A DNA stretch of 64,000 nucleotides from assembly GCA_017416505.1 (NCBI GenBank), contig JAFQCI010000062.1:1-64000 (forward strand). Reading direction: 5' to 3'. The notes beneath the pieces are model-generated. The model was not told where the DNA came from, made no database searches, and saw nothing but the letters and a program-made list of their open reading frames with translations. Below, piece by piece: positions 16,163 through 55,974 of this stretch. Made by a program: the position numbers and the translations under genes. Each line of letters begins with the position of its first letter. The stretch's first letter is position 1. Source of the DNA: Lachnospiraceae bacterium (GTDB lineage Bacteria > Bacillota_A > Clostridia > Lachnospirales > Lachnospiraceae).

Positions 16163-16854
16163 AAGGCAGCCAGCAGCATAACACCTAAGCTTACGGTCAT
16201 TACAATTACTCCAACCACATTGCCGTATAATACACTGATATAGTCCCCATTGGTGAGACGAAGATATAAAACAATCAATGCGGGAAATAGAATCATAATT
16301 CTTGTTTCCATCTTTTTTGCTGCTATCATGGTTTTTATCTCTTCTTCTGTTTCAATTTTTAAACAGATGGAGTGAACGGACTTTTCTATAATTCGAACTA
16401 AATTACCGCCACTTTTTTTACCGATTGCAACAATCTGGGCAAAATTTTCCGCCTCTTCAAGCTGACAGTCCTTAGAAAACTCCAACAATGCCTGTTCTAG
16501 GGAGGTGTTCATTTTTAATTTCCGCAAAGCCTTTTCCAAATGAGAAATTAAAACACTTTTTTCCCCATACAAAATACCCAATTCTTTTTTCGCAACCCAA
16601 AACGCATTTTCCAAGGAATACCCTGCATTTAAAGCCCCGGATACAAAACCTATCATTTCACGAAATTCCTCCAACATCCTCCTTTTCTCTTTTTCTTTTT
16701 TTACCCTCTCCATCACCTTCAAAAATACTTTCAAACATGGAAGAAAACAAAAAAACGCAATAAAGCTTTCATAAAACAGATAAGAAACTACTGCATCCAA
16801 GAAGAGAAAGCAAAGCAGATTACCCACCATTTCAAGCGATATCCTATTCTTCAT
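16129..16854 (-). CDS. tadB: TadB-like inner-membrane platform protein
   Basis: The 241-residue protein has two N-terminal membrane segments, a T2SSF domain (FVSGALNAGYSLENAFW, KMNTSLEQALLEFS, AIGKKSGGNLVRIIEKS) and two C-terminal membrane segments. It is the partner of TadC. It overlaps the cpaF fragment by 11 bp at its start, the usual arrangement of a polycistronic tad operon. With cpaF split, its expression depends on transcription from inside or across the prophage left end. Confidence 0.88.
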   Translation of the reverse strand: MKNRISLEMVGNLLCFLFLDAVVSYLFYESFIAFFCFLPCLKVFLKVMERVKKEKEKRRMLEEFREMIGFVSGALNAGYSLENAFWVAKKELGILYGEKSVLISHLEKALRKLKMNTSLEQALLEFSKDCQLEEAENFAQIVAIGKKSGGNLVRIIEKSVHSICLKIETEEEIKTMIAAKKMETRIMILFPALIVLYLRLTNGDYISVLYGNVVGVIVMTVSLGVMLLAAFWSEKIMDIKV

Positions 16855-17277
16855 ACTCTGCCACCCTCCCTGCCATTTGTAATTTCTTTTTATTCTTCAA
16901 TTCATTTCTTTTTTCAAGAAAACCTTTGATTTTCCCATTCTCCTGTCCTGTTTCCTTAAATTCATATAAGGGACGAATTAAAATTTCCTGTTCTTTCACT
17001 CCCACAATTTCAATAATCTCCAATACACGACGGCTTCTGTCTCTTAATCTTCCTAAATGCACAATAATATCAATGGCGGATGCGATTTGTTGTCTGACCG
17101 CCGCAACCGGCATATCTACTGCCATCAGAACCATGGTTTCCAGTCGTTTCAACATATCACAGGCTGAATTGGCATGTCCGGTGCTTAAAGAACCGTCATG
17201 TCCGGTTGCCATGGCTGCAATCATGTCCAAGGCTGCACCATCTCTTACTTCCCCGACAATTATTCTGTCACCACGCA
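16844..17277 (-). pseudogene. cpaF: CpaF/TadA secretion ATPase, C-terminal part cut off by the prophage
   Basis: It begins directly at the attL core. The first native residues are RGDRIIVGEVRDGAALDM, which is Walker B, followed by the His box TGHDGSLSTGHANS. Walker A is missing; it lies in the other piece at 55185-55974, 38 kb away. A TTG in phage DNA could start translation in frame but without a good ribosome site. Fusing the two pieces at the core gives an unbroken frame of normal length. The protein would power Flp pilus assembly. Confidence 0.92.
17274..17277. other. attL core
   Basis: Host DNA reads CTGTCACCA up to the core CGCA and phage DNA continues AAATAAAAAGGGG. Only these four bases are shared with attR. 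That is the short identity expected for a large serine recombinase. Confidence 0.8.
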
Positions 17278-17290
17278 AAATAAAAAGGGG
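17276..17290. repeat. Left arm of 15-bp phage-end inverted repeat
   Basis: CAAAATAAAAAGGGG is the exact reverse complement of 55154-55168. In the circular phage the two arms would flank the attP core with a 14-bp spacer, so this is probably part of the integrase binding site. Confidence 0.75.
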
Positions 17291-17390
17291 AAAGATTCCT
17301 GAATTGTTTTTTCTAATATTGTGGATAAGAAAAAATTATGCTAAAATCAAGATGACTTAAGAGATGGTTAATAGATGGGAGGTTGAAGTT

Positions 17391-17627
17391 TTGCACAAAC
17401 AATACAGTGCAAAGATAATGCTTAAAAGAACTGGTGATTCTTTTTATCTTATAAATCTAAAACATCGCAGTGCTATAGATATCGTGATATTTGATAGCTT
17501 CGATGAGGTCGCCGAAGCGATTGAGGCGGCAAAAGTAGAATATAAAGATGATAACCCTTCTTTTAATGTTTTTGTTCAGAACGTTACCGAATGGGAGATA
17601 ATGAGCCAGGAATTTAAAACCAACTAA
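17391..17627 (+). CDS. Small protein of unknown function next to attL
   Basis: The frame is open from 17364, but GGGAGG sits eight bases before a TTG at 17391, which I prefer (78 residues). The product reads HKQYSAKIMLKRTGDSFYLI at the start and contains FDSFDEVAEAIEAAKVEY. It looks like a small alpha/beta protein. It is transcribed against the late genes, beside attL, with its own terminator, the typical position of a lysogenic-conversion gene. Function is unknown. Confidence 0.65.
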   Translation: MHKQYSAKIMLKRTGDSFYLINLKHRSAIDIVIFDSFDEVAEAIEAAKVEYKDDNPSFNVFVQNVTEWEIMSQEFKTN

Positions 17628-17677
17628 AAAAACTGTTGCATCCACGATTTTTACTCGTTAATGCAACAGTTTTTTTA
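17628..17677. terminator. Strong bidirectional terminator
   Basis: AAAAACTGTTGCAT and ATGCAACAGTTTTT form a perfect stem directly after the stop of the attL-proximal gene, with a T run on the plus strand. Confidence 0.85.
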
Positions 17678-17720
17678 TTTTTTCTACTTTCTTATTTGAA
17701 TTGCCTTATCTATAAAAATA

Positions 17721-17744
17721 GGTCGAGGAACTTCATCCTAGACC
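17721..17744 (-). terminator. Terminator-like hairpin after the lysis genes
   Basis: GGTCTAGG and CCTCGACC on the minus strand pair with one mismatch around an 8-nt loop and are followed by TATTTTTAT. It would end the late operon. Confidence 0.6.
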
Positions 17745-17758
17745 AATCAAAAAAATTA

Positions 17759-18565
17759 TTATAATCTCGTTACATAATCCAACGAAATCCAACCTTGTCC
17801 AGATTTTAATTTACCCCAGCCTTTCATGGAACCCTTACCACTTTTAACCTGTACGATTGTATATGTTCCAGGTTTAATGGTTCCTTTTTTACCGCAGTTG
17901 GTACCAGCTCCGGCTCTAATGTTTAGATTCTTAATGCTTACTTTAATTTTGAAAGTATCAGAGTCATTGCTTGCATTAGTAGTATTGTTTTTTGTCTGGG
18001 TAGAGGTCACCTCTTGTATTTTACTGATACCCAACGTTTTTAGTATTCCTCTTGCATAGGCTCTTCCGAATTCCTGTTGCTCCTCCAGGGTGTCTACAAT
18101 TTTAACATCTTCTGCATTATCAACAAATACGCCCTCTACAATGACAGCAGGACATTTAGTGGAGCGAATAAAACCGAAATAATCTTTGCCACTTGAATTC
18201 TTTCGTGTTTTTAATCCTCGACTGTTCTGACCTATTTTCTTGACTTCATCCTCTATGTTTTTAGCCAGGATTTTTCCTGTTCCTCCGTTGCCAGAATGAA
18301 TTACTTCGAATCCATCTCCTCCTCCTGCGTTATTATGTATGTCTACTGCCAAATCCGGATTAAATGCATTGCACTCTTTTACCTCTTCGTTCAATGGATC
18401 ATTTTCGTCTTTAATTCGACTCATTTTAACAATGACACCATTTGTTTCAAGATAGTCCCTGCAGGCTAGAGCCATGTTTAAATTAGCATCTGCTTCTTTT
18501 AAATATTTAACTGCTCCTGGGTCTGAACCTCCATGTCCTACCCCTAAAAATACTTTTTTACTCAT
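17759..18565 (-). CDS. Phage endolysin, N-acetylmuramoyl-L-alanine amidase with SH3-like domain
   Basis: Residues 1-180 form an Amidase_3 domain: the zinc ligands are likely His in GVGHGGSDPGA, Glu in KEADANLN and His in AVDIHNNAGGGDG, with the catalytic Glu in VIVEGVFVDNAED. An Asn/Thr-rich linker leads to a C-terminal bacterial SH3 domain (NLNIRAGAGTNCGKKGTIKP) that should bind the wall. It cuts the bond between MurNAc and the stem peptide. It lies one base after the holin gene, the standard lysis pair. Confidence 0.92.
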   Translation of the reverse strand: MSKKVFLGVGHGGSDPGAVKYLKEADANLNMALACRDYLETNGVIVKMSRIKDENDPLNEEVKECNAFNPDLAVDIHNNAGGGDGFEVIHSGNGGTGKILAKNIEDEVKKIGQNSRGLKTRKNSSGKDYFGFIRSTKCPAVIVEGVFVDNAEDVKIVDTLEEQQEFGRAYARGILKTLGISKIQEVTSTQTKNNTTNASNDSDTFKIKVSIKNLNIRAGAGTNCGKKGTIKPGTYTIVQVKSGKGSMKGWGKLKSGQGWISLDYVTRL

Positions 18566-18566
18566 A

Positions 18567-18965
18567 TCATTTTTCCTCCTTGTCTCTTAATTGAATTAAT
18601 GTCTCTTTCAACTTTTCCGGAATTGGAACAAATTCCGAAGCATTTTCTAATAACGAAATTCCTTCATTGCATAAGAAAAACACAATTACTATTTCTCTTA
18701 GCGGTACCGCCTCGCCTACCACAGACTGAACTACTACCGCAGTTGCGACTACAATAAATATCACTACTTTTTTTACTAGTCCTTTAAATCCAACTGAGCT
18801 GGATAGTGATTTAGTTACGATAGCCTTCAATACACCCGTAATATAGTCCAGGATAACAAGTGCAATCAATGCACTTAAAATCGTATCCCAGCCTCCTAGT
18901 AATTTGCAAAAAAAACCGCCGACGATACCGCCGACGATACTTAATTGATTAAAGAATTTCCCCAT
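18567..18965 (-). CDS. Holin
   Basis: The ATG at 18965 has AAGGAG at suitable spacing. The product has a glycine-rich N-terminal segment and three hydrophobic stretches (including TILSALIALVILDYITGVLK and VVIFIVVATAVVVQSVVG), with a charged C-terminus. LDYITGVLKA is the signature of the toxin-secretion/phage-lysis holin family (Phage_holin_4). It opens the membrane for the amidase encoded next door. Confidence 0.9.
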   Translation of the reverse strand: MGKFFNQLSIVGGIVGGFFCKLLGGWDTILSALIALVILDYITGVLKAIVTKSLSSSVGFKGLVKKVVIFIVVATAVVVQSVVGEAVPLREIVIVFFLCNEGISLLENASEFVPIPEKLKETLIQLRDKEEK

Positions 18966-18988
18966 TCCTATCATCTCCTTATTTTGTT

Positions 18989-20380
18989 TTAATTTTTAGT
19001 TAATACATATCTTATGGTAAGGTTCTGAATTGTTATATCTGCAGTGCTTTGGTTTATCACTGAGATGTTAGCTTTATCAAGTCTTATTTGTATGTTTAAT
19101 GATTCGTTTCCGTCACCTTCCATACATACAACGCTAGCACTGATGATTGTATATCCTTCTGTATCTGGCAACGAAAAATCTGTGATGTTTAACACTTCAC
19201 CGGCACTGATTGTTTTTGATTCCTCAATAACAACATCCTCGTATTTAATAGTTGTGTTAATCGACGAATACAGTTCGTCGATTCTTTCATCGATGCTATC
19301 TGTTTTTACATTCCGGTTCAAGCTTGTATCTGTAAAGCTTGAGAAGGTGTGTCCTATCGTAACAGTGTCATTATCTGGAAGCAACAGGTTGATTGTTTGC
19401 TTAGTTAATAGCATAATGTCATCAAGATCGTGAGGTTCGCTGGTGGCTTGAATATAATCACCAAGAGAAAAGCTGCTGATTGAGCGGTCCAAGATTGATA
19501 AGTCTAGGGCTGTTAGCTGGATGCTTGTGTTCTGCTTTATCAATTTCGATAAATAAGCTTTGCCTTCGTTTAGTAATTCCTCCGGGTTGCTCGTTTCGAA
19601 TATTACCGGCTTTTCAATCCATCCATATTTTTTTACCGCTACTTCATCATAAATATAATCCATATCATTATTTACACTTTTGATTGTCAGTCTGGATGTA
19701 TTCTTCCCACTTCCTACTTTGGCACCCAGTGGAATGATTACGGTAGCAATCTCTGTACCATCATTTGTTTTCAAAAAATCCAAAAGGTTTTCACCAAACT
19801 CAATATTCTGTGTATTGGTGTGAGGATAATCGTGCAGCCAATTTAAAACAGGCATCCCGCTTTCATTTCTGGTAATGTGCAGATAGCCTCCGTATGTTTT
19901 TAGCAATTCGTTTACAACGGTCAGAGTGTCCGGATAATTTGAATTCTCAATACTGATATAATCATCATCGTTGGCTGCAGTAATATCCCCTATTAAAAAA
20001 CGCTTTTCATCCTCAACCTGCAGGTTGTGACTCACTAGATACTGCACAAACAAATCTCTTGGATTTCCGTAAAAGGTATATGGTCTTTGCACTGAATCCA
20101 ACAAAAAAGAAAGTTCACCTTCACAGGTAAAAGTTTTTTCGTTGTAAAAGCCTGCACTATCCATGATAACTCTTCCACGGAATATAATTGATTCTCTTTT
20201 TAACACTGTTATAATCGTTTTTAATTTTTGAATATAATGATAATATTCATGTTCCGGATATGCTCCGAAAATAAAGGAACCTGCTTTATTCACTTCTTTC
20301 GTAATGGTTCCTTTTGTTATTGTATTATCATCCAGTGTACTGTCATAGAACAGATTCCCGTCGGCATAGATTTTATACAC
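18989..20380 (-). CDS. Tail-associated lysin/endopeptidase-type tail protein (Tal)
   Basis: The 463-residue protein matches the minor structural/prophage endopeptidase tail family in its N-terminal 300 residues (FRGRVIMDSAGFYNEKTFTC, NSNYPDTLTVVNELLKTYGG, LDFLKTNDGTEIATVIIPLG). The C-terminal 120 residues are beta-rich. It forms the tail tip below Dit. The start overlaps the dit stop at 20380. No separate peptidase domain is visible, so it may be structural only. Confidence 0.85.
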   Translation of the reverse strand: MYKIYADGNLFYDSTLDDNTITKGTITKEVNKAGSFIFGAYPEHEYYHYIQKLKTIITVLKRESIIFRGRVIMDSAGFYNEKTFTCEGELSFLLDSVQRPYTFYGNPRDLFVQYLVSHNLQVEDEKRFLIGDITAANDDDYISIENSNYPDTLTVVNELLKTYGGYLHITRNESGMPVLNWLHDYPHTNTQNIEFGENLLDFLKTNDGTEIATVIIPLGAKVGSGKNTSRLTIKSVNNDMDYIYDEVAVKKYGWIEKPVIFETSNPEELLNEGKAYLSKLIKQNTSIQLTALDLSILDRSISSFSLGDYIQATSEPHDLDDIMLLTKQTINLLLPDNDTVTIGHTFSSFTDTSLNRNVKTDSIDERIDELYSSINTTIKYEDVVIEESKTISAGEVLNITDFSLPDTEGYTIISASVVCMEGDGNESLNIQIRLDKANISVINQSTADITIQNLTIRYVLTKN

Positions 20381-21033
20381 TACAGCACCCCCTCTCTATA
20401 AATGAGTGTTAATGTTCCAGTACCCTCTACCGTGACTACTGTCGTTCCTGATTTCAATTTCAGATCTGAAAGCTTATGCTTTCCATTTGTCAATGACATT
20501 GTTTTGCCATTGGAAGAAATGATAATATTTCCTGTTACCTCAGCTTCCGGTATGGCGGTTCTTATCCCCATATTGGTACATATCAGGTTCACAGTCGAAT
20601 TATCAACTGTTACCGTCCGTACCGTTTCATTTATGGCATATCTCCACGGTTCACAGTTACATTCAATTTTTATTGTTGCGAACGCTTTGTTATTGGTTGA
20701 ATCTGTGACAGTGCATCTTGCGTATAGATAATGATACGGATCGTCGTCTAATATCACCGGAATTTTTCTTCCATGAATTTTTGCAGTGATTTCTTCTAAT
20801 ACTTCTTCCCGGTAATAATAGTTTCCTTTACCTAAAGTAAATGAAAACGCGGCCGGGCGATTTTCATATTTGATTTCTCCGGCCAGTTCCTCTGATAGAT
20901 CAATGCTTCCGTCTCGCCCAGGTACGCTTACATAAAGCGTCTTTGGAGTTGGTTTTGAAATGCTTTTATCTGTAAGAATAAGTCCCCACTCTGCAGAATG
21001 ATACGGTCCGAATTTTATTCCTCTTACATGCAT
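20380..21033 (-). CDS. Distal tail protein (Dit)
   Basis: The 217-residue protein begins MHVRGIKFGPYHSAEWGLIL and contains VPGRDGSIDLSEELAG, typical of the siphovirus Dit family. It forms the hexameric hub linking tail tube and tip. Start and stop codons overlap by single bases with the tape-measure and Tal genes. Confidence 0.88.
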   Translation of the reverse strand: MHVRGIKFGPYHSAEWGLILTDKSISKPTPKTLYVSVPGRDGSIDLSEELAGEIKYENRPAAFSFTLGKGNYYYREEVLEEITAKIHGRKIPVILDDDPYHYLYARCTVTDSTNNKAFATIKIECNCEPWRYAINETVRTVTVDNSTVNLICTNMGIRTAIPEAEVTGNIIISSNGKTMSLTNGKHKLSDLKLKSGTTVVTVEGTGTLTLIYREGVL

Positions 21034-24000
21034 CAGATTCCCCTCGCTTTCAACATATAATTACTGGCCAGTTTTTCATCAATCTTATTGATGGTCTCTC
21101 CTACCAGAATCCCGCTATCCAATACTATAGATTTTTGAGATGCTTCGACCAACTTAGGAAAATATTCAGATACTAAACTTACCAGGTCTCCAATGTCGCC
21201 CCTCGTATTAATTTCTCCGGAAAATGTATGTTCTAACTGGCGATTAAGAGTAATGCCGTTGATTCCCTTAGCGCTGCTCATCATATCGTCTCCAAGCTTT
21301 TCAAGGGCGTTTAGTGGGCTATTCTCATTTTCGAGAATACCTATTCCAATACCTTCGGCTATGTACTTACCTACTTCGTCACGGAACACCCTTGATGGAG
21401 AATGGATTCCTAACGATTCCTTCATCCCGTCAAGAATTTGACATGCGAACTCTCCAACCTTTTCTTTTATCCATTCGACTGAGTTCTGAATACCTTGCCA
21501 TAGTCCTTCAACAATATTAGTACCTATAGCCATTACTGTATCGGGAACGGAGTCCAGTCCACCTTTAATTGTATCTGCTACGTCCCCCATGGCAGTTTTC
21601 GCTTTTGATACCATATCACTTCCCCAAGACATCACATTAATAATCGCCTGTGCGATAGCAGTCTTTACTTTGTCCGGTATCTGCTGCGCTATGGTAAATA
21701 TTATTGATACCGTCGAAAGCATGCCATCGCTGGCTTTCGTTTTCATTTCCTGTCCCCAGGAATACACTTTAGTAACTGCTCCTATGATAGCATTGAATAT
21801 CTTTTCCGGTAATTCGGATAAGAAGGAAACTACAGAAGATACCAAGCTACCGACTGCTGCATTTGCTTCATTCTGAATTTCAATGCCCCATGATATCATT
21901 TTTTCAATGATATCTAGTAAAAAGTTCCATATATCTTCTGGTAACGTTTCTAATGTATCAGTTACTTTTTGGCACAATTCATTCATTGCATTTTCAGCTT
22001 TTTCTCTTAACTGGGCACCCCATTCCACTAATTTTGTAACTGCGCCTACGATGCAGTTCCATATTACACCTGGGAGTTGTAATAATATCTCGTTGACTTT
22101 GTTTAGTAAGTCCCACATAAGTGTGGCTATTTCTGTATTTGCCGGAGCCAGTCCTTCAACAATGGCTATGACAATTTGAGGTAAATTTTCAACTAAAATC
22201 GGAAGTGCTTCTAATAATCCAGTCACTAATGAAACAATAATCTCTCCGGCACTTTCTACTAATAAAGGTAAAGTTTCCGAAATTCCATTGATAATACTTA
22301 CTATGATTTGAGGTAATTGTTCAGCCAGCAAAGGCAAAGACTGTATCAATCCATTTGCAAGTCCTGTGATGATTTGACTTGCTGCACTTATAATTGTAGG
22401 TATATTTTCAGCCAATGTCTGCACAATAAAAAGCATGAGATTTACGATTTGAGGTACTAGTTCTGGAAGGGACTTCGAAATTCCCTGCGCCAGCGAAACA
22501 ATAATTTGCACTGCTCCTTCGACTATATTAGGCAACAGATTCACGATTCCACCTAATAATGAATCCATAATCTGGATTGCCCCTTCAGCTATCTGAGGTA
22601 TTGCCTGATTGAATCCTGAAACTAAATTCTCGACTAATCCAATGCCGGCAGTTACAATCTGCGGTGCGCTGCTTACTAGTCCGTCAGCCAGTCCCAATAT
22701 TAGTTCAGATGCTAGTGTGGTAATGTTTGGTATCAGTTCACCGATTCCACTTACTAACTGTTCCAGCGCTTCGCCAAATGTATCTGCCAGAGCTCCGATA
22801 TCGCCATTAGCTTCTTTCGCTCCTTCTGATAGTGTGTTTGCAAACTCTGTAAATATAGGAAGTGCTTCTTCGCCTATCGGCATTATGAAACTGGTTTGCA
22901 GTATCCTTCCAGTTCCTTGTAATGCAGAATTCAAATCATCATATCTTATTTCATTAATATCGTTTAGCGCCGTAGAAAGTGTAGAAAGTTCTCCTTGCAT
23001 ATTCATAACAGATTTGACACCCTCGGCTCCCAAGTCTTCCCACGTGGTTCCGAAAAGCTCTACTCCAAGCAGATTTTGAGCTACAGGGTCTTCCATGGCG
23101 AAAAGAGCTGTCGTTATCTCTTGTAGTGCAGATTTTGCACTCTCGCCACCCTCTGCAAATTTCTGTTTCGTTTCATCCACTGCAAATCCCAATTCTTTAA
23201 ATGCATCATCTGCAGTTCCATCCTTAACGCGGATACCAAACTCTTTTACTGCATCGCCCAGCTTATCCACCGAAAAAGTTCCGTTCTCAGCACCATTTAC
23301 TAGCATGTTGAACATATCTTCGGCTGAAAGTCCCAACTGCGCAAAATGGACACCATATTCATTTATGGTGTCCAACAAATCTCCATTCTTATCAAGTCCG
23401 TTTTGTGCGCCCTGGGCGATGAAATTATAAGCCTCTTCGGCTGAAAGTCCGTACTGGTCCATCAGCATCTTGGCTGTTCTGGTGGACTCATTTACTTCAA
23501 ACTCAAAGGTATCTCTCATTAATAGAGCGTATTCTGTCGTTTTCTCCAGTTCTTCTCCTGTCAGCTTTGTATTTACTTTTGTTATAGACATTGCATCTGC
23601 AACATCTTCGATAGATTCACCGAAGTTGTTGTTGTAAATATTTTTCATCGCTGTTTCAAGAGATTCCATTTCATTAGCAGTCGCTCCGGTTTTTGCCTGA
23701 AACGTATTAAAAGCCTGCTCGAAATCATCTGCTGCATTTGTGGCATAGCCACCAAATGCCCCTACTGCTCCCGCTGCTGCAGTAAATGCTACCGCTCCGT
23801 TTTTCATGACATCAAACGTATTGGAAGCTACGTCTTTAAAATCTACTAATTCCTTCTTGGCATCTTCTACACTCTCTTCGTAGTCGCTTGTATGTTTTCT
23901 TGCATCGCTGGTACCATTCGCAAGATCTTCAATTGCTTTTTCTGTACTGCTTAGGTTGCCTTTCATATCATCCAAGCTGTTCTGTGTTTTTATTATTTCC

Positions 24001-24305: not shown

Positions 24306-24314
24306 TTATATTTT

Positions 24315-25753: not shown

Positions 25754-25758
25754 ATTTA

Positions 25759-47406: not shown

Positions 47407-47410
47407 ACCT

Positions 47411-47959: not shown

Positions 47960-47990
47960 GCTGTGTCTCCCTTCTTGCCTGCATGTTTTT

Positions 47991-48197: not shown

Positions 48198-48224
48198 AGA
48201 ATCATTCCTTTCTTGATATTAAAG

Positions 48225-48334: not shown

Positions 48335-48388
48335 TGTATGAGGTGCTGTGTGATATGTATATTTTTCAACTGCCGGTACCTTTGTTAT

Positions 48389-48559: not shown

Positions 48560-48571
48560 ATGTGTTTTCCT

Positions 48572-48720
48572 CTAGTCTGTCTTGCTAAGCTTTCTTGTTC
48601 TTGGTTTCTTTCCGGTTGTATCCTGCTTTTTTAATGCTGTTCGGCTTACTATCTCCAGCATCTCCGGAGTATTTTTTACTACTAAATGATTGTCCGGATC
48701 CAGTCCATGGCTTTTAATCA
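48572..48720 (-). CDS. DUF6906-type small protein, start unclear (possible frameshift product)
   Basis: The frame encodes RKKLIKSHGLDPDNHLVVKN and TPEMLEIVSRTALKKQDTTG, close to DUF6906 proteins. It lacks ATG and ribosome site. It is in the -1 frame of the gene at 48718-49239, whose last codons carry A AAA AAT before TGA. It may be made as a fused extension, from the TTG, or not at all. Confidence 0.5.
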
Positions 48721-49239
48721 ATTTTTTTCTGACTCAATGTTGGTGCCTTTCCGTTCTTCAACCTTTACCGCCTCCTCTCTCGAATGCTTCCAACGTTCCA
48801 ATTCTTTTTTTAAATCATCCTGCATTATGCTTGTGTACTCATGCTTGCCACCTTGTGCATAATAGTTATAATTCGATGATTTATCCACAAGCATTTCCCA
48901 CAGTCCACTGTTTTTTACTGGTTTTCCCCTAGCAGTGTGCCAATCATTATCCTTCCACTGCATATGCCAACCATTTTGAATAGTGCTCAAAATATGCTCG
49001 CAACCAGTCATGACTGGTACTGAGTGGCATTTTAGAGGTATGTTTTTTATTACACAAAACGCATTGATGATCGCCATCAAACATCCTTGTGCTTCGGTTC
49101 CATTCTCAACATGAATGAAACCTTGTCTCGTTATGGGTTCGCCATCTTTTATGCATTCCACAAGCCACATAGCTACACCGTCTTTTACTGCCGGTCCTTT
49201 CCAGGAAGATTCAATGAATATCTTCACTTCCGCCTCCAC
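48718..49239 (-). CDS. RNase H-like fold protein
   Basis: Residues 1-130 follow the RNase H order: VKIFIESSWKGPAVKDGVAM, NGTEAQGCLMAIINAFCVIK (Glu), SVPVMTGCEHILSTIQNGWH and ARGKPVKNSGLWEMLVDKSS. Some catalytic acidic residues are replaced, so activity is doubtful. The C-terminal 45 residues form a charged helix. Phage homologues occur with replication genes. Confidence 0.68.
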   Translation of the reverse strand: MEAEVKIFIESSWKGPAVKDGVAMWLVECIKDGEPITRQGFIHVENGTEAQGCLMAIINAFCVIKNIPLKCHSVPVMTGCEHILSTIQNGWHMQWKDNDWHTARGKPVKNSGLWEMLVDKSSNYNYYAQGGKHEYTSIMQDDLKKELERWKHSREEAVKVEERKGTNIESEKN

Positions 49240-49273
49240 CTATATCACCTCCCTCTCCTGCTGCCTTTATTGA

Positions 49274-49822
49274 TTAACCAATGTAATCTCCTATCTCTTC
49301 CAAATCAACTCCACAAATCTCTTTTATCCAGCTATAAAATATCTCAACATATCCGTACAATCCCTCATAATTTAGAACAGCATCTAGTATTTCTCTAGTC
49401 GAATAAAGACTTCTGATATAATCTATTGAATCATCCGGATCCAGGTCTAGTTCATGGCACAGTGCTTCCATGATTCGTTTACTGTATTGTTCTGCTGCCT
49501 GAATGTTATCTTCTTCCAAGGCATTATTTTCTTTCTGAATTTCATCCACTTTCGAAACTTCCTTCGCTTCCGGATATTCTTCTTCCATAAATTCATCTTC
49601 ATTCGTAATTTCATCACTTGGGTAGATGTTATGTAGTCTTAATAATTTGCAGTTCTTTAAGCTTTCTATGCTATATGGTCTTTTATCAAAAAATGCGCAA
49701 AACGTACTTCCTTCGATTACTGCCTTTACCATAATGTGCGAACCTGTATCATAAAATTCGCATTCTTCCGGTGAGCAATGTGCAACTGTAAATCTTGCTA
49801 GTTTTTCTGTTATAATTCCCAT
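49274..49822 (-). CDS. Phage protein of unknown function
   Basis: The 182-residue acidic protein has a beta-rich N-terminus (FYDTGSHIMVKAVIEGSTFC), an acidic linker (DEFMEEEYPEAKEVSKVDE) and a helical C-terminus (VEIFYSWIKEICGVDLEEIG). No family recognised. It is the first gene of the leftward early run below the duplicated cassettes. Confidence 0.6.
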   Translation of the reverse strand: MGIITEKLARFTVAHCSPEECEFYDTGSHIMVKAVIEGSTFCAFFDKRPYSIESLKNCKLLRLHNIYPSDEITNEDEFMEEEYPEAKEVSKVDEIQKENNALEEDNIQAAEQYSKRIMEALCHELDLDPDDSIDYIRSLYSTREILDAVLNYEGLYGYVEIFYSWIKEICGVDLEEIGDYIG

Positions 49823-49861
49823 ACGTAATTTTCTCCTTTCTTCGTTTTGTTACTTCGCTTC

Positions 49862-49891
49862 TTGCCTTGCTAATTCATCTTGTCGTATAAT
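49862..49891 (+). promoter_or_regulatory. Promoter of cassette gene A1
   Basis: TTGCCT (49862-49867) and TATAAT (49886-49891) with an 18-bp spacer. The sequence TTCATCTTGTCRTATAATAAG is shared with the A2 promoter apart from one base (written here as R). Confidence 0.7.
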
Positions 49892-49930
49892 AAGTTTGCC
49901 ACCACTCTCAACGACAGGAGGTGAGTAATA

Positions 49931-50116
49931 ATGTCCGATAAAGAAAGACGTGCCCATGAACTTGCTCTGAAAACGGTATCAGCCATCATGTCCCGTGATT
50001 TAGAAGTAATGAGAAATTCAGATGGTGATGAAGATGAAGTTCGTGAGGTTCTTGCTGCATCGGTGCTTGAAGCGTACAATTTTCACTATGCTTCATTCTT
50101 GAAGTCTATAAAATAG
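49931..50116 (+). CDS. Cassette gene A1, 61 aa, unknown function
   Basis: ATG at 49931 follows AGGAGG. The protein (MSDKERRAHELALKTVSAIM, EVREVLAASVLEAYNFHYAS) is helical and charged and is clearly homologous to A2 at 50456-50641. It is read toward and overlaps by 11 bp the minus-strand gene B1. It has its own strong promoter, unusual in this leftward early region. No known family recognised. Confidence 0.75.
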   Translation: MSDKERRAHELALKTVSAIMSRDLEVMRNSDGDEDEVREVLAASVLEAYNFHYASFLKSIK

Positions 50117-50339
50117 TGTCAAATTGCATCGCGCTATCAATTATGTCTATTGCTAATTTTGAAGCATATATAGCTCTGTTCGGAGTTGTGTTTTCTTCTT
50201 TACATATTGCTTTTATTATGGCAATAGACATCTTTGATATTTCTATTTGACTCGATGGGATATTTTCCCCTGATGACGAATCTTTTTTTATACGTTCCAA
50301 TCGTTTTTCCGCTCTTTTGATTAAACTTTCTTTTTCCAT
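50106..50339 (-). CDS. Cassette gene B1, 77 aa, unknown function
   Basis: ATG at 50339 follows TAGGAG. The product (MEKESLIKRAEKRLERIKKD, ISKMSIAIIKAICKEENTTP, AIYASKLAIDIIDSAMQFDT) is helical and is homologous to B2 at 50631-50861. It converges on A1 with an 11-bp overlap of 3' ends. Function unknown. Confidence 0.75.
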   Translation of the reverse strand: MEKESLIKRAEKRLERIKKDSSSGENIPSSQIEISKMSIAIIKAICKEENTTPNRAIYASKLAIDIIDSAMQFDTIL

Positions 50340-50388
50340 TTTGCATCTCCTATTTATTCAATTTTTATGCATATTTTCGTCTCGTTTC

Positions 50389-50417
50389 TTGTCCTATCGT
50401 TCATCTTGTCATATAAT
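50389..50417 (+). promoter_or_regulatory. Promoter of cassette gene A2
   Basis: TTGTCC (50389-50394) and TATAAT (50412-50417) with a 17-bp spacer, followed by AAGTTTGC as in the A1 promoter. Confidence 0.75.
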
Positions 50418-50455
50418 AAGTTTGCTATTACTTTTATTGATAGGAGGTGAACTTG

Positions 50456-50641
50456 ATGTCTGACAAAGAAACACGTGCTCATGAACTTGCCCTGTGTGTT
50501 GTATCTGAGGTTATGCGACATGATTTCGAATTAATGAAGAAACCTCAAAAAGATAGTCAGAAGCCTGAAGCAGCTTTCTTAGCGTCGGTGACTGCCGACT
50601 ATAATTTCTACTTTGACAAGTTTAAGGACTCTATAAAATAG
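50456..50641 (+). CDS. Cassette gene A2, 61 aa, paralogue of A1
   Basis: ATG at 50456 follows TAGGAGG; a GTG three codons earlier is unlikely. MSDKETRAHELALCVVSEVM and AAFLASVTADYNFYFDKFKD align with A1 along the full length, with the same size and the same end (SIK). It overlaps B2 by 11 bp tail to tail, exactly as A1 overlaps B1. Function unknown. Confidence 0.75.
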   Translation: MSDKETRAHELALCVVSEVMRHDFELMKKPQKDSQKPEAAFLASVTADYNFYFDKFKDSIK

Positions 50642-50861
50642 GTGCGTATTTCATCTCTGACTCAATTATGTCTATTGCCATCGTCAGAGCGCTCTTTGCG
50701 ATAAATGGAGTTGCATTCTCTGATTCGCATATTGCTTCTATGATGGCAATGGACAGTTTTGTCATTTCCTCTTGGTGTTGTCTTGGGTATCCCATTAATG
50801 GCATTTTCTTGGAATCTTCATGCCATTTTCGAGCTCTTTTAATTAGTTGTTCCTTTTTCAT
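50631..50861 (-). CDS. Cassette gene B2, 76 aa, paralogue of B1
   Basis: ATG at 50861 follows AAAGGA. MKKEQLIKRARKWHEDSKKM, MTKLSIAIIEAICESENATP and KSALTMAIDIIESEMKYAPI align with B1. Both B proteins end in the same pattern (DII-S-M, IL). Function unknown. Confidence 0.75.
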   Translation of the reverse strand: MKKEQLIKRARKWHEDSKKMPLMGYPRQHQEEMTKLSIAIIEAICESENATPFIAKSALTMAIDIIESEMKYAPIL

Positions 50862-50907
50862 TATTCATCCTTTCTACATGACTTTATGTGTTGCCACTGT
50901 TTTTTAA

Positions 50908-51069
50908 CTAGCTTGCCTCTTCTTTGTATGTATTATCTGACAGTTCCGCCTCACTCTCTGCCCTTCTTTTTGCATATATCTTTAATATTGCTGATGTGAA
51001 CCTTTCCTGATATCCTTCTGTATATTCAACTTCAACTGGTATCTTGGCTTTTTCTGTTTTTCTCTTCAT
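50908..51069 (-). CDS. Small phage early protein, 53 aa
   Basis: ATG at 51069 follows TAGGAGG. The sequence MKRKTEKAKIPVEVEYTEGY and FTSAILKIYAKRRAESEAEL is basic then acidic. It lies in the early leftward run near the control region. No family recognised. Confidence 0.65.
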   Translation of the reverse strand: MKRKTEKAKIPVEVEYTEGYQERFTSAILKIYAKRRAESEAELSDNTYKEEAS

Positions 51070-51090
51070 AAGCTACCTCCTATGCTGTCC

Positions 51091-51249
51091 TTATAATTGC
51101 TGATTTCTGCTTGCGACCGCTGCAGCAAAACCTTGTATGTAATATGATATCTTCTCCTGTTGCTGCTCATTTAGATTTGCTACTTGTGTCATGAGTTTTA
51201 CAAACTCTTGGTTTTTATCGGTTATTGGTCTTTCAAGCGTTGTATTCAT
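51091..51249 (-). CDS. Small early protein, 52 aa, first leftward gene
   Basis: ATG at 51249 follows GAAGG. The product (MNTTLERPITDKNQEFVKLM, LNEQQQEKISYYIQGFAAAV) fits a group of short helical proteins encoded opposite phage repressors. It is the first gene of the leftward transcript, divergent from the repressor. Confidence 0.68.
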   Translation of the reverse strand: MNTTLERPITDKNQEFVKLMTQVANLNEQQQEKISYYIQGFAAAVASRNQQL

Positions 51250-51411
51250 CTTTGCACCTTCTTTCGATGTTTTCACATTGTTTTGTTGCTTATGTTATCA
51301 TTATAGTTGCTTGAATCACTATTGTCAATATATTTTTCAGTTTTTTGTTGCTTATGTTTACAAACTATGATAATATAATTGTATAAAATATGCAGAAAGG
51401 GGGATTGTTTA
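51250..51411. promoter_or_regulatory. Divergent control region with repeated operator sequence
   Basis: TTTTGTTGCTTATGTT occurs at 51281-51296 and at 51343-51358, with a partial third copy AGTTGCTTGA near 51305. For the repressor gene TTGCTT and TAATAT near 51349-51377 give a plausible promoter. The repeats are likely binding sites of the XRE protein at 51412. Confidence 0.7.
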
Positions 51412-51789
51412 ATGAATGAACGTGTAAAGGAATTACGCACAGCTCTAGGATTATCAGCTGAAAAGTTTGGTGAACGCGTCGGTGTTACTCGTTCTGCTAT
51501 TAGTAGGATAGAGAACGGTGTGGTAAATATAACCGAACAAATGCAGAAAAGTATTTGTCGAGAATTTAATGTAAACGAAGAGTGGTTAAGAAATGGCGCC
51601 GGAGAAATGTTTAATATTTTATCGCAAGATGAAGAACTAGCATACATAGTTGGTCAGGTATTGCCACAGGCGAATGACTTCGTTAAAAATGCTTTTATTT
51701 CATTTGGTCGACTATCACAAGAATTTACTCCAGATGATTGGGTGGTAGTAAAAAAATTCATAGACGCACTGGCTGGGGAGGGCAAATAA
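51412..51789 (+). CDS. XRE-family phage repressor (CI-like)
   Basis: ATG at 51412 follows AAAGGGGG. The HTH is MNERVKELRTALGLSAEKFG, GVTRSAISRIENGVVNITEQ. The C-terminal part is short (FVKNAFISFGRLSQEFTPDD), and no LexA-like self-cleavage domain is visible. It should hold the prophage silent by binding the operators next to its start. Confidence 0.88.
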   Translation: MNERVKELRTALGLSAEKFGERVGVTRSAISRIENGVVNITEQMQKSICREFNVNEEWLRNGAGEMFNILSQDEELAYIVGQVLPQANDFVKNAFISFGRLSQEFTPDDWVVVKKFIDALAGEGK

Positions 51790-51816
51790 AAAGCAGCCTA
51801 TTTATGGCTGCTTTTT
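51788..51816. terminator. Terminator of the repressor gene
   Basis: AAAAAGCAGCC and GGCTGCTTTTT pair around ATTTAT directly at the repressor stop codon. The small minus-strand ORF 51798-51908 ends inside it. Confidence 0.85.
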
Positions 51817-51908
51817 ATCCCTCTAATGAATTGATATATCATTTTGAGGGTATCTAAGTCTTTTATTTCTTGTACCAGCAATATTATATCACTGCGTAAT
51901 TTATGCAT
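51798..51908 (-). CDS. Tiny phage protein, 36 aa
   Basis: ATG at 51908 follows AAGGAGGTGTACT, a very strong ribosome site. The product MHKLRSDIILLVQEIKDLDT and KMIYQFIRGIKSSHK resembles short helical proteins found beside phage repressors. It runs antisense into the repressor terminator, so transcripts may meet here. Confidence 0.6.
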   Translation of the reverse strand: MHKLRSDIILLVQEIKDLDTLKMIYQFIRGIKSSHK

Positions 51909-52020
51909 AGTACACCTCCTTTTTTCGGATTGTACCTGCATTATAATTTGCACTGTCATTATTTGCAATACTTTCGACCGTCTTTTCCGATATATAGGAA
52001 ATAGGTGCGAAAGGTAGTGA

Positions 52021-52230
52021 CTAATTTCCGGAATCTGTTATACTACTTTTGTAAAGGTCGCAGATATTAACGCCCAATCCTGCTGCCAAACTTTCTAAAG
52101 TTTCCAGTCTGGGACTTACTTTTCCATTTTCAATCGCGTTAATTTCGCTTTTACTTATTCCGGTGATTTCGGCAAGTTGCATCAAGGTATAATTGTTCCT
52201 GGTGCGTAACTGCCATAATAGTATTTCCAT
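52021..52230 (-). CDS. XRE-family HTH protein (Cro-like or second repressor)
   Basis: ATG at 52230 follows GAGGGGG. The HTH is clear: MEILLWQLRTRNNYTLMQLA, EITGISKSEINAIENGKVSP, and LETLESLAAGLGVNICDLYK. At 69 residues it is a single domain. It diverges from the HsdR_N-like gene and may control that gene or the lysogeny switch. Confidence 0.85.
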   Translation of the reverse strand: MEILLWQLRTRNNYTLMQLAEITGISKSEINAIENGKVSPRLETLESLAAGLGVNICDLYKSSITDSGN

Positions 52231-52323
52231 TGCTATGCCCCCTCTTTTTTTATCTTGGTATAGCATAATATTAACAATAAAATTAAACATTTACTTGAGG
52301 AAAAATTACAGGAGGACTTAATT

Positions 52324-53388
52324 ATGGGATTTTCAGAAGATATTAAAGCACTGGCAGAAAGGATTACGCAAATTGGGGATAAGATTACAACAGAAGAAGC
52401 CACTAAAATGTCGTTAATATTACCGTTTTTTCAATTGCTCGGATATGATGTATTTAATCCATCCGAGTTTTGTCCCGAATATACCGCTGACGTCGGAATA
52501 AAGAAAGGTGAAAAAGTCGATTATGCAATTTTACAGAATGACGAACCGGTAATATTAATTGAATGTAAATGGTGTGGAGAGCCATTGACAAAACATGCTT
52601 CTCAGCTATTTAGATATTTCAGTACAACCCCGGCTAAGTTTGGTATATTAACAAATGGTTATGTATATCGTTTTTATACTGACTTGGATGAAACAAATAA
52701 AATGGATCTTACTCCATTCTTGGAACTTGATCTACACTCAATCAAGGAAGCTCAAATAGCCGAATTAAAGAAATTTAGTAAGGACGTATTTGATAAGGAT
52801 AGTATTTTTAGTACGGCCGAGGAACTTAAGTATAGTAATTTGATTAAAGAGGTGCTACAAAAAGAACTTGACTCACCATCCGACGAATTTACTCGTTTCA
52901 TTCTATCAGATATATACGATGCGCTAAAAACTCAAAAGGTTATTAATAAGTTTAAACCAATCGTAAAGAAATCCTTTTCTTCTTTTATTAACGAACTTTT
53001 GAATCAAAGAATTTCAAGCGCTTTAAAATCGGACGAAGAAAAAGAATCTGCTGCAACTGCAGAATCAGTTCCCGAAGAAGCCGATATAAAGGCAAACAAA
53101 ATCATTACAACAGAGCAGGAAATAGAGGCTTATTATATTATCAAAGGAATCATTTCCAGTGTTATTGATGTCAAAAGAATTACATACCGTGATGCCGAAA
53201 GCTATTTTAGTATATTGATTGATGATAACAATCGCAAGCCGGTATGTCGTTTAAATCTAGATACAAAGAAAATGCAAATATTTTTACTTAACGAAGACAA
53301 GACTTTCGAACGAATATATATAGAATCATTGAATGATATATACAACTATAAAGATCGTCTTATTGATACGGCTCAAAAATATATTTAA
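52324..53388 (+). CDS. Orphan type I restriction HsdR_N-like nuclease
   Basis: ATG at 52324 follows AGGAGG. Residues 20-140 form the HSDR_N-type PD-(D/E)xK fold: Asp in KKGEKVDYAILQNDEPVILI and Glu-x-Lys in IECKWCGEP, with QLFRYFSTTPAKFGILTNGY. A helical middle and a small C-terminal alpha/beta domain (YYIIKGIISSVIDVKRITYR) follow. No HsdM or HsdS and no ATPase are present. Position between repressor and integrase suggests expression in the lysogen, perhaps as phage defence. Confidence 0.8.
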   Translation: MGFSEDIKALAERITQIGDKITTEEATKMSLILPFFQLLGYDVFNPSEFCPEYTADVGIKKGEKVDYAILQNDEPVILIECKWCGEPLTKHASQLFRYFSTTPAKFGILTNGYVYRFYTDLDETNKMDLTPFLELDLHSIKEAQIAELKKFSKDVFDKDSIFSTAEELKYSNLIKEVLQKELDSPSDEFTRFILSDIYDALKTQKVINKFKPIVKKSFSSFINELLNQRISSALKSDEEKESAATAESVPEEADIKANKIITTEQEIEAYYIIKGIISSVIDVKRITYRDAESYFSILIDDNNRKPVCRLNLDTKKMQIFLLNEDKTFERIYIESLNDIYNYKDRLIDTAQKYI

Positions 53389-53402
53389 TTCATAAAAGCA
53401 AA

Positions 53403-53426
53403 AGGTTCCAGGCGGCAACCTGAAAC
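53403..53426 (+). terminator. Hairpin after the HsdR_N-like gene
   Basis: AGGTTCCAGG and CCTGAAACCT pair with one mismatch around CGGCAA. It lacks a long T run, so it may be a weak terminator or a structural element of the leader that follows. Confidence 0.45.
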
Positions 53427-53460
53427 CTCTGCGTGATAGATTGTAACCCGTAAACTAAAA

Positions 53461-53535
53461 GCTTATGGTACAATACCACCCTAGACAAGTGATATTATAC
53501 CATAAGCCCGATATTTTATAAAGGGCTTATTTTTT
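53461..53535 (+). promoter_or_regulatory. Mutually exclusive hairpins before the integrase (attenuator-like)
   Basis: GCTTATGGTA (53461-53470) is complementary to TACCATAAGC (53498-53507). The latter overlaps TAAGCCC (53503-53509), which pairs with GGGCTTA (53523-53529), followed by TTTTTT: a terminator. Only one of the two stems can form fully. This is the logic of an attenuator or riboregulator 30 bp before the recombinase start. Confidence 0.72.
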
Positions 53536-53566
53536 ATACCCAAAAATAAAAGGTAGGTGTATTATC

Positions 53567-55144
53567 ATGATTTTAAAAATAGGTTGCTATGGTAGAAAAT
53601 CTGTATATTCCGATAATTCAGATTCGACCGACGTTCAATATGCGCTGGCTGTAGAATATTGCAAATCCCATTACAGCGATTATGAAGTATACAGGTATGA
53701 GGATGAAGGTTACACGGGTGCGAATACCGACCGCCCGGATTATAACCGTCTTATTGCTGATGTTAAAAATGATATGTTGGATGTAGTTATCTGCTATAAA
53801 ATAGACCGAATCAGTCGAAATGTACTTGATTTTTCCGGTTTCTTTTCTTTATTATCTGAGCATAATGTAGAATTTGTAAGTATCAAGGAGCAAATTGATA
53901 CATCCACTCCTTTAGGAAGAGCCATGATGTATATTTGTTCTGTTTTTGCCCAAATGGAAAGAGAGACTATTGCAGAACGAGTCACTGACAATATGGTTCA
54001 ATTATCAAAATCCGGCAAGTGGGCCGGCGGAAAGGCACCAATAGGATTCAAACGTGAAAGGGTAGAGATTGGCGGAAAGATGCATACAATGCTTGTAGAA
54101 AACCCAGAAGAGATTCCGTTTTTAAATCTAATCGTAGATACCTTTATAGATGGTGGATATTCTCTAGGAGGATTAGAAACACATTTTCGCAAACAAGGAG
54201 TTAAGACTTTGAAAGGAAATTACTTATCAGCTTCGCAATTATATAATATTCTCAAAAACCCTCATTACGCACCTGCCGACGCTTCTACTCTTGAATATTT
54301 CAAATCTCTCGGTTGCGAAATTGGTTGTGAAGAAAGTAAATTTACCGGAGAATACGGTATAATGGCATATAGAAGAACTTCAGGCGGTGGAAAAGAAAAA
54401 CACGTTTCTAGAACTCCTGAAAACTGGATTATTTCCGTTGGACTGCATCAACCCCTTATGAGCTCAGAGAAATGGTTGTCTGTACAAGCACGTTTCGGAC
54501 ATAATGTAATAGATAAGACCCGAAAACACAAGATAGGTATATTAAAAGGTGTATTGCGTTGTTCTTGTGGGTATGCCATGCGAGTGCGACACAAAGTGGA
54601 TAAAACCTATCATAAAACCTATGATAATTACTTTTGTCAAAACCGCAATCGTCGTGGTAAAGAATTTTGCGACCGTTCCTTCGTACCTGTGGCAGACCTG
54701 GATAATGCCGCCATTGAATTACTTAAAAATATTGCTTTGGACAAATCAATAATAGATGCGTATGTATATGAGGACAAAACTATACATGCTTGTATGCGTT
54801 CCAGGTCAGAAGTTCAAAGAGATATTGATAGTTTTGAATCGAAAATAGAAAATCTTGCTTCTGCTCTTGGATCCAACTCTTCTTCTACTGCTGCAAAATA
54901 TATAGTATCTGAGATGGAAAAGATAGATAAGCAAATAACTTCATTAAAATATGAGTTGATGGAAATAGAGCAGAATGATCGCAAACGTGCCAAGACCAGA
55001 AAGAGTACTGATGATAAATATAAAATGGTGTGTCATATCGTAGAAAATTTAGAAACTGCAGATTATGACGAGTTGAACGGACTTATAAAAAACCTTTTTA
55101 AAGAATGTATCTGGGATGGTAAAAACCTAAAGATAAAACTTTAG
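53567..55144 (+). CDS. Large serine recombinase (integrase)
   Basis: The 525-residue protein has a resolvase domain (residues 4-150) with catalytic Ser in YGRKSVYSDNSDS, YKIDRISRN and FAQMERETIAERV. The recombinase domain (about 155-300) contains GGKAPIGFKRER and LYNILKNPHY. The zinc ribbon has CSCGYAMRVRHKVDK with CQNRNRRGKEFC, and a coiled coil lies near 415-465. It ends 37 bp before attR. It joins attP to attB in cpaF; excision would need a directionality factor, not identified here. Confidence 0.95.
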   Translation: MILKIGCYGRKSVYSDNSDSTDVQYALAVEYCKSHYSDYEVYRYEDEGYTGANTDRPDYNRLIADVKNDMLDVVICYKIDRISRNVLDFSGFFSLLSEHNVEFVSIKEQIDTSTPLGRAMMYICSVFAQMERETIAERVTDNMVQLSKSGKWAGGKAPIGFKRERVEIGGKMHTMLVENPEEIPFLNLIVDTFIDGGYSLGGLETHFRKQGVKTLKGNYLSASQLYNILKNPHYAPADASTLEYFKSLGCEIGCEESKFTGEYGIMAYRRTSGGGKEKHVSRTPENWIISVGLHQPLMSSEKWLSVQARFGHNVIDKTRKHKIGILKGVLRCSCGYAMRVRHKVDKTYHKTYDNYFCQNRNRRGKEFCDRSFVPVADLDNAAIELLKNIALDKSIIDAYVYEDKTIHACMRSRSEVQRDIDSFESKIENLASALGSNSSSTAAKYIVSEMEKIDKQITSLKYELMEIEQNDRKRAKTRKSTDDKYKMVCHIVENLETADYDELNGLIKNLFKECIWDGKNLKIKL

Positions 55145-55153
55145 GCTTTTTCT

Positions 55154-55168
55154 CCCCTTTTTATTTTG
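55154..55168. repeat. Right arm of 15-bp phage-end inverted repeat
   Basis: CCCCTTTTTATTTTG is the exact reverse complement of 17276-17290. It lies 12 bp before the attR core. Confidence 0.75.
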
Positions 55169-55180
55169 AGAGGTTCCGGG

Positions 55181-55184
55181 CGCA
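55181..55184. other. attR core
   Basis: Phage DNA GGTTCCGGG runs into the core CGCA, followed by host cpaF sequence TTCGAAGGC. Joining host DNA on both sides at the core gives ATGCGTGGTGAC on the coding strand, Met-Arg-Gly-Asp, the residues expected in CpaF. Confidence 0.8.
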
Positions 55185-55974
55185 TTCGAAGGCTTGATTT
55201 AATCAAATCCCGCATGGAAATTTCGTTTTCTCCTTCAATATTGGCATTTCGCACTTCCAGTCGAACCAGATTTTCAATCTGCATCAACCTTAATTCTGCT
55301 GAATCTTCAATCGTAATAATTCTTTGGTCTTTGGGAATAAATTGTGATAATGCGTTTAGAAATGTGGTTTTTCCACTTCCGGTTCCTCCGGAAATAAAGA
55401 TATTGTACTTACTTTCAACCAGAATTTTAAGACGTTTTGCTACTTCTTTATCAATGGATTCCATGGCAATCAGTTTTTCCATGGTAAATCCCTCTTTTGC
55501 AAATTTACGGATGGTAAGAATGGAACCATCCAAAGAAATGGGACTCAATAATACATTTACTCTGGAACCGTCACTAAGGCGGGTATCTACGATAGGACTC
55601 GCCTTATTTACCCTGCGGTTTGCCTTTGCTACAATTTGCTGAATTACATTCTCAAGCCTCGCCTCACTTTCAAATTTTAAATTGGTTCGATATATCTTTC
55701 CATCCTCTTCTACAAAAATCTTCTCATGTCCATTTATCATAATTTCTGTTATACTGTCCTTGGAGAGTAGTTGGGACAATACATCCAGTCCCCTGAGTCT
55801 GTGAAAGATATCCTTTCTCAACATAATTTTATCCTTTACGCTTAAAAAATGTTCCTTGGAATACCAGTCCAATTTATCATCTATCATGTGATAGATTTCA
55901 TCATCCTTAATATCCACGGACAAATCCATTTCCTCTAATATTTCCTCTTGAATCTGTTTTTTTAGTTCCTCCAT
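55181..55974 (-). pseudogene. cpaF: CpaF/TadA secretion ATPase, N-terminal part cut off by the prophage
   Basis: Residues 1-265 are native: the N-terminal domain (SITEIMINGHEKIFVEEDGK), VDTRLSDGSRVNVLLSPISL and Walker A GGTGSGKTTF (about 196-205), Asp box ITIEDSAELRL, ending SSLRMR. The frame then runs into phage DNA for 12 foreign codons (to PEPLKIKRGEKA) and stops at 55141, overlapping the integrase end. Without Walker B and His box the truncated protein cannot be an active ATPase. Confidence 0.92.

Follow-up and report, generated by a model that had tools for sequence, protein, structure and literature searches.

Insertion of serine-integrase prophages at one codon of the Tad pilus ATPase gene cpaF in Lachnospiraceae

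Mobile genetic elements are found in conserved genes for DNA uptake and pili. PMC4774983 describes recurrent insertion of prophages into comYC, and of other elements into comM, comFA and comK, with related integrases; the streptococcal and lactococcal comYC prophages occupy the orthologous place of a conserved uptake/pilus gene in several species and inactivate it. In the pneumococcus, prophage attachment sites that inhibit transformation are described in PMC12637031. The skin element of Clostridioides difficile sigK is excised by a serine recombinase together with a directionality factor, as set out in PMC5025042, in which comK is also mentioned. Here a Lachnospiraceae locus of this general kind is described. 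In a 64-kb window (the whole stretch of DNA analysed, 64,000 nucleotides of contig JAFQCI010000062.1), the gene for the Tad-pilus ATPase, cpaF/tadA, lies in two pieces with a prophage between them.

The site is shared across several species by related integrases, as in targeting of the comYC and comM type. Compared with the mobile genetic elements of comYC, comM, comFA and comK, however, the gene struck is that of the Tad/Flp ATPase, all window-type cases found share one codon, and a role of the gene in DNA uptake is only presumptive for these hosts. The main text of PMC4774983 contains none of the words ‘Tad’, ‘Flp’ and ‘CpaF’, and no earlier report of the Tad ATPase as an integration site was recognised in a literature search that lacked most subscription papers. 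The Listeria comK prophage is similar in being an intact phage within a host gene that is restored by precise excision; regulated non-lytic excision is established there, whereas for the window prophage it is a hypothesis. The skin element likewise interrupts a host gene and has a large serine recombinase, but according to PMC5025042 it is prophage-like, has a known directionality factor and is found in most strains, whereas the window element is a phage with virion genes, and window-type elements were detected at this codon in at least five of 397 family genomes. Splitting of a gene by mobile elements is a known behaviour for which the Tad ATPase is a new target, and cpaF contains a true, exact and recurrent gene-splitting attachment site.

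Both pieces of cpaF lie on the minus strand. The N-terminal piece (277 aa, 55141..55974) matches positions 7-213 of the PF00437 profile and the C-terminal piece (144 aa, 16844..17278) positions 210-288, with amino acid identities of 95.9% and 91.7%, respectively, to the unbroken CpaF of a relative, genome G138. The N-terminal piece is host DNA as far as 55175, followed by about ten phage-encoded codons and a stop, and the C-terminal piece has a TTG start within the phage arm. Of the family motifs, the N-terminal piece carries Walker A (GGTGSGKTT, 55363-55389) together with the Asp box (TIEDSAEL, 55291-55314), and the C-terminal piece carries Walker B (DRIIVGEVR, 17243-17269) together with the His box (17171-17209), again all on the minus strand. 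All four motifs of a T2SSE-family CpaF/TadA are present, shared out over two open reading frames (ORFs). An earlier note on this DNA had placed the break between Walker A and Walker B, and the profile and motif positions bear this out. The solved CpaF structures 8rkd, 8rjf and 9e24 match residues 40-382 of G138 CpaF (E ~1e-94) and belong to the same ATPase family; their chains comprise the whole ATPase, whereas the window gene is in two pieces.

The prophage measures 37,907 bp with one core copy counted (17270..55176). The crossover falls on a central GA, with which the Asp/Glu codon of LRMRP[DE]R begins; this dinucleotide is seen at 17268..17269 on the C-piece side and at 55175..55176 on the N-piece side (TC on the plus strand, GA in the cpaF sense). 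Host sequence ends at ATGCGCCCGGA on the N side and begins at GACAGAATAATTG on the C side, and joined at GA it encodes LRMRPDRII, matching G138 around the site. The earlier note had proposed that the pieces join in a continuous, family-typical frame at a shared CGCA core. The frame stands when the join is made through GA; the core does not, since a join at CGCA would read LRMRGDRII, with Gly replacing the conserved Pro, and it is GA that reproduces the G138 site. On the phage side, the arm adjoining the integrase (55154..55174) consists of the 15-bp dyad arm CCCCTTTTTATTTTG and 6 bp, and the opposite arm (17270..17290) of 6 bp and CAAAATAAAAAGGGG, a perfect 15-bp complement of the other arm. 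Joined, the phage arms give an attP of CCCCTTTTTATTTTGCGTGGT-GA-ACCTCTCAAAATAAAAAGGGG, a dyad centred on GA in which 21 of 24 pairs are symmetric; the best other centre reaches 14, and none of 2000 shuffles attains 21. Beside this site lies a 525-aa large serine integrase (53567..55144, plus strand; phrog_95) with Resolvase N-terminal, Recombinase and zinc-ribbon domains (PF00239, PF07508, PF13408), which, with a dyad attP around a shared dinucleotide, are the features of a large serine integrase system.

An empty-site relative with an intact cpaF, for which the earlier note had proposed a search, was found in G138, the closest relative found for the window (95% amino acid identity over the N-terminal piece). 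This genome has the same full tad locus, with cpaF open for 411 codons (411 aa). Both window flanks align collinearly with it (DNA identity approximately 82-84%), and the two alignments end there on neighbouring bases (window 55175 corresponds to L079 10447, window 17269 to L079 10446). The site is thus vacant in G138 and filled in the window. The other tad genes had been supposed intact, and as far as compared they are: eight ORFs are open in G138 at lengths similar to those in the window, the largest differences being 135 versus 156 aa in a small gene and 496 versus 473 aa in TadC, whose start is uncertain. The ratio of nonsynonymous to synonymous substitution rates (dN/dS) against G138 is 0.037 and 0.059 for the cpaF pieces and 0.06-0.19 for the eight other tad-locus ORFs (a TnpB remnant excluded), and the cpaF pieces and the other tad genes are under purifying selection relative to G138.

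Relatives of the integrase were sought in GTDB contigs (7 loci), IMG/VR (12 loci), 397 genomes of the family (17 at E<=1e-80) and 391 genomes of the class (2 at E<=1e-95). A cpaF match is present in 382 of the 397 family genomes. In eight other genomes cpaF is broken at this codon too, and a relative of the window's large serine integrase lies at each junction. Seven share one orientation: G002, G003, G005, G180, G271 and G320, with integrases 69%, 63%, 49%, 40%, 36% and 39% identical to that of the window, and G168, whose integrase is cut by the contig end and is 80% identical over 137 residues. The eighth, G007, carries its element reversed at the same codon, with the integrase (39%) adjoining the C-terminal piece (L007 1205-3137). 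Four IMG/VR contigs have the same break, with an integrase beside it in L014 (53%) and L138 (40%), and with only the C-side junction and no integrase in view in L144 and L148; L138 and L148 stem from the same sample, possibly as the two ends of one prophage. Of the seven same-orientation genomes, six yielded a C-terminal piece and G180 did not, and in G271 both pieces lie on one 223-kb contig, about 39 kb apart. Joining at GA restores LRMRP[DE]R in 7/7 two-sided lysogens (the window and six others). The best PHROGs of the G271 terminase and portal differ from those of the window, so different phage bodies use one site, and in the integrase tree the users of the cpaF site are spread across the clade.

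Among the 17 integrase-bearing genomes of the 397-genome panel, the integrase lies beside the N-terminal piece in four (G002, G180, G271 and G320) and does not in 13; with G168, at least five of the 397 genomes are lysogenic at the GA codon, and this count of split cpaF is a lower bound. A draw of 140 family genomes gave a cpaF match at E<=1e-50 in 136, and among the matches listed were four frames shorter than 350 aa (G145, G064, G061 and G011, none of them a known window-type lysogen) and one cut by a contig end (G141). Integrase DNA gave one partial match only against phage records. Single cpaF-piece proteins found no match in IMG/VR, whereas an alignment query found twelve loci, of which L139 and L143 are one unbroken cpaF and L140 is a distant unbroken relative.

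The attP dyad is strong in five of seven lysogens, the window included, weak in one and absent in one. It has 19 of 24 pairs in G168 (0 of 2000 shuffles; best other centre 12), 18 in G002 (1 of 2000; 15), 15 in G003 (8 of 2000; 13) and 14 in G271 (4 of 2000; 10), is weak in G005 (12 pairs; 49 of 2000; 11) and is absent in G320 (9 pairs; 660 of 2000; 12). On the host side, 33 cpaF loci were compared, a non-random sample of 30 best-match loci and three others. GA stands at the crossover codon in 31 of them, the lysogen G168 included; the remaining two, G346 and G004, have a Ser codon, and two IMG/VR copies (L137 and L139) have Asn. Per-column conservation in 29 of the 33 loci came from a pattern that itself fixes several columns, and the GA count was taken independently of it. 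GA begins both GAY (Asp) and GAR (Glu), and is therefore kept when the codon changes synonymously or when Asp and Glu replace one another. The attachment site would be the codon of the conserved Asp/Glu in the LRMRP[DE]R lead-in to Walker B, and with GA present in any cpaF that has Asp or Glu at this position, a single site could be usable in most of the family. The window element is very probably a temperate siphophage inserted by the adjacent large serine integrase at this Asp/Glu codon.

Several recombinase types strike one stretch of about 30 codons in cpaF, within which the window-type serine integrases act at codon 267 of G138 CpaF. In G064 (L086) the gene is broken at the same RMRP codon beside three consecutive tyrosine recombinases, a Tn554-like arrangement. 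G239 (L083) and G145 (L084) carry elements of about 20 kb with nearly identical ends, some 18 codons downstream of the GA site; that of G239 encodes a 621-aa large serine recombinase, an IS110 transposase and an MmeI-type restriction enzyme, and that of G145 a DprA-domain protein and a BpuJI-like restriction enzyme, with no recombinase identified in it. In G292 and G011 the break is at the NTGH codons, about 23 codons past the GA site, G292 carrying a 609-aa large serine recombinase and G011 a weak serine-recombinase match only. Breaks near the same stretch are also seen in the IMG/VR contigs L137, L145, L146 and L147, and cpaF frames are short in G061, G164, G199 and G204. The cpaF of G199 (L087) has one extra C in a run just before the GA crossover, which shifts the frame and is either a sequencing error or a real indel. 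Contigs L130 (G141) and L082 (G204) stop exactly at the RMRP and NTGH sites, respectively, perhaps from coexistence of occupied and empty sites in the sample. Integration into cpaF is thus recurrent in Lachnospiraceae, as it is into comYC, comM and comK elsewhere.

Several observations weigh against so specific an association of integrase and site. The related integrases at L001, L006, L013 and L131 have no cpaF match in the DNA fetched. The L001 integrase (72% identical) has other flanks and the cpaF of its genome, G001, is intact; the L006 integrase is also located elsewhere, with cpaF intact in G006, and over the part compared it stands at zero tree distance from that of G002. Because integrases as close as those of L001 and L006 are inserted elsewhere, integrase targeting of cpaF is strong but not absolute. 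Neither of the two matches from the class-wide search has a cpaF match in the DNA fetched, three loci (L004, L008 and L015) stop at a contig edge, the L015 integrase being that of G005, and L016-L019 were left out of insertion-site placement. A sister integrase clade (L132, L133 and L134) has a common, different attachment sequence, which seems to lie within some other conserved gene of the host, M23-peptidase-like by eye.

Phage forms with a joined attP were also encountered. In L009, L010 (L011 is the same site) and L012, the integrase is followed by a dyad centred on TC and then by phage genes, with 15, 18 and 16 of 24 pairs and 2, 0 and 0 of 2000 shuffles, respectively, and no cpaF match in these loci. 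By Pfam, the genes after the dyad are an amidase and a holin in L009 and a phage lysozyme and a holin in L012; in L011 an amidase follows after two other genes. These loci are read as putative excised, circular or permuted phage forms. L001 and L006 were considered as free attP and rejected (10/24 and 9/24 pairs; 166 and 514 of 2000 shuffles). Neither the exact attP of the window phage nor a degenerate form of it was found in IMG/VR, so that excision of the window phage itself is a prediction. No second cpaF passes E<=1e-60 in G002, G168, G180, G271 and G320, the five same-site lysogens of the 397-genome panel, which are draft genomes in which six candidates were scored each. Only the split cpaF lies above the PF00437 cut-off in G002 and G168. 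An extra ATPase of 563-596 aa, called PilB-size from its length, is present in G138, G003, G004, G005, G011, G292 and G320, so the Tad motor is not always the sole such motor.

The tad locus lies on the minus strand and runs, from right to left, from a TadV-like prepilin peptidase (57008-57496, PF01478) through a gene in the TadZ/CpaE position (55987-56925, no Pfam match, its role suggested by position) to the N-terminal piece of cpaF, the prophage and the C-terminal piece. It continues with TadB (16129-16854) and TadC (14672-16162), both PF00482 and told apart by gene order, a 75-aa Flp-type pilin candidate recognised by reading of its sequence only (14415-14642), a DUF5702 protein (12794-14302), a truncated IS605-type TnpB remnant (11978-12787), TadE (10992-11801), a small gene of no assigned function (10615-11022) and an FHA protein (9152-10591). 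TadB, TadC, TadE, the prepilin peptidase and the pilin candidate are neighbours of cpaF as in a Tad/Flp locus. The TnpB remnant also lies inside the G138 tad locus (56.7% amino acid identity, 288 aa) and, being present there too, is probably older than the split of the two species. The window DNA is low in GC (34-41%, 2-kb means), and a SAM riboswitch (6827-6931) stands immediately 5' of S-adenosylmethionine synthetase (6935-8236), an expected pairing.

Within the prophage, the integrase is accompanied on the plus strand by an endonuclease-like gene (52324..53388, phrog_4225) and a CI-like helix-turn-helix (HTH) regulator candidate (51379..51789), and on the minus strand by a Cro/CI-type HTH regulator candidate (52021..52290). 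The other genes assigned are all on the minus strand: replication initiation (42764-43603, phrog_3584), a ParB-like gene (41308-42732, phrog_6218), terminase large subunit (30904..32712, phrog_9), portal (29307-30653, phrog_12), a gene of no assigned role between portal and head (28400-29239, phrog_16951), major head protein (27241-28407, phrog_10), tape measure (21033-24305), Dit (20380-21033), a tail protein (18989-20380), holin (18567-18974) and endolysin (17759-18565). Integrase, packaging, head, tail and lysis modules, the complement of a temperate siphophage, all lie between the att sites, and from a scan of part of the ORFs the element looks like a complete siphophage prophage. It also contains a NUMOD4/HNH homing-endonuclease-like gene (44919-45545) and a LemA-family gene (47411-47959). 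The G271 prophage carries a diversity-generating retroelement, with a reverse transcriptase at L136 14254-15468 and two 124-nt repeats (L136 13203-13326 and 13845-13968) that are 92% identical, 10/10 differences falling at template adenines; the variable copy forms the end of a 319-aa ORF (L136 12382-13341).

Ordinary lysogeny accounts for everything seen, because the prophage has lysis, packaging and tail modules. Insertion would leave an N-terminal piece without Walker B and a C-terminal piece without Walker A, and the lysogen would be expected to lack a working Tad ATPase. Precise excision normally requires the integrase and a directionality factor; here it would restore cpaF and could return a pilus that the lysogen is predicted to have lost. 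A pilus switch is possible on these grounds, but regulated excision of the kind known as active lysogeny, in which the host, or host and phage together, would remove the prophage without lysis under set conditions and so turn the Tad pilus on, is unlikely. Excision restores cpaF exactly in the sequence, as active lysogeny implies; by the dN/dS values above the cpaF pieces and their tad neighbours are undecayed, the N-terminal pieces of six other lysogens aligned are open with their motifs kept, and there are precedents in skin elements and comK (PMC5025042). However, undecayed pieces are equally expected after a recent insertion, which sister divergence cannot date, the phage has lysis and virion modules, and a different phage body at the same site in G271 points to generic attachment. 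Very unlikely, too, is a split ATPase with both halves translated and functional, the phage arm giving the C-terminal half its start codon. An in-frame NTG does occupy the host Met codon in the phage arm at 10/10 C-side junctions read (TTG in the window, G168 and G002; ATG in G003, G005, G320, L144 and L148; CTG in G271 and L007), but in the window it follows from the symmetry of the attP dyad (CAA opposite TTG), so selection for C-half expression was rejected as its cause, and an ATPase with its Walker A and Walker B motifs on different chains would have to assemble in an unusual way. Most improbable of all is an assembly or binning artefact fusing phage and host contigs: many of the relatives are draft assemblies, with several cpaF pieces on separate contigs, but both window junctions lie within one 64-kb stretch with collinear flanks, G271 has both pieces on a single contig, and the two-base crossover is identical in every two-sided case, and the artefact was rejected on these grounds.

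It is also possible, although less likely than not, that elements are selected to strike cpaF, with loss of the Tad pilus blocking DNA uptake that could remove the element or denying competing phages their pilus. The clustering of several recombinase types within about 30 codons (window-type, G064, G239/G145 and G292/G011) is consistent with such conflict, as is the lack of any other PF00437 gene above the cut-off in G002 and G168. Flp pili are required for transformation of Micrococcus luteus, according to PMC4322843, and mobile genetic elements insert in comYC, comM, comK and comFA (PMC4774983). Nevertheless, a near-universal motif conserved in its DNA is well suited to attachment even if inactivation brings no advantage, and G138 and others carry a separate PilB-size ATPase. 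ComEC (PF03772) was detected in 16/16 genomes tested, but the search was also positive in 10/14 controls, including Escherichia coli and Caulobacter, which makes it weak evidence of competence. No report of Tad-dependent DNA uptake in Lachnospiraceae is known to us, no dedicated literature search having been made. Slightly less likely again is the wider proposal of the Tad ATPase as a family-wide battleground, in which elements would converge on the Walker-B/His-box codons since a pilus held off protects the resident, and excision would re-arm the pilus, lysogeny being an off state that reverts in a subpopulation.

The Lachnospiraceae are known from the gut and rumen, and to our knowledge little is known about the role of Tad pili in members of the family living there. 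A recurrent, exact and reversible natural knockout of cpaF would supply off/on pairs for testing pilus function. Insertion at this codon also brings the Tad system into the pattern of mobile elements in DNA-uptake and pilus genes, and raises directly the question of whether Lachnospiraceae have Tad-dependent DNA uptake.

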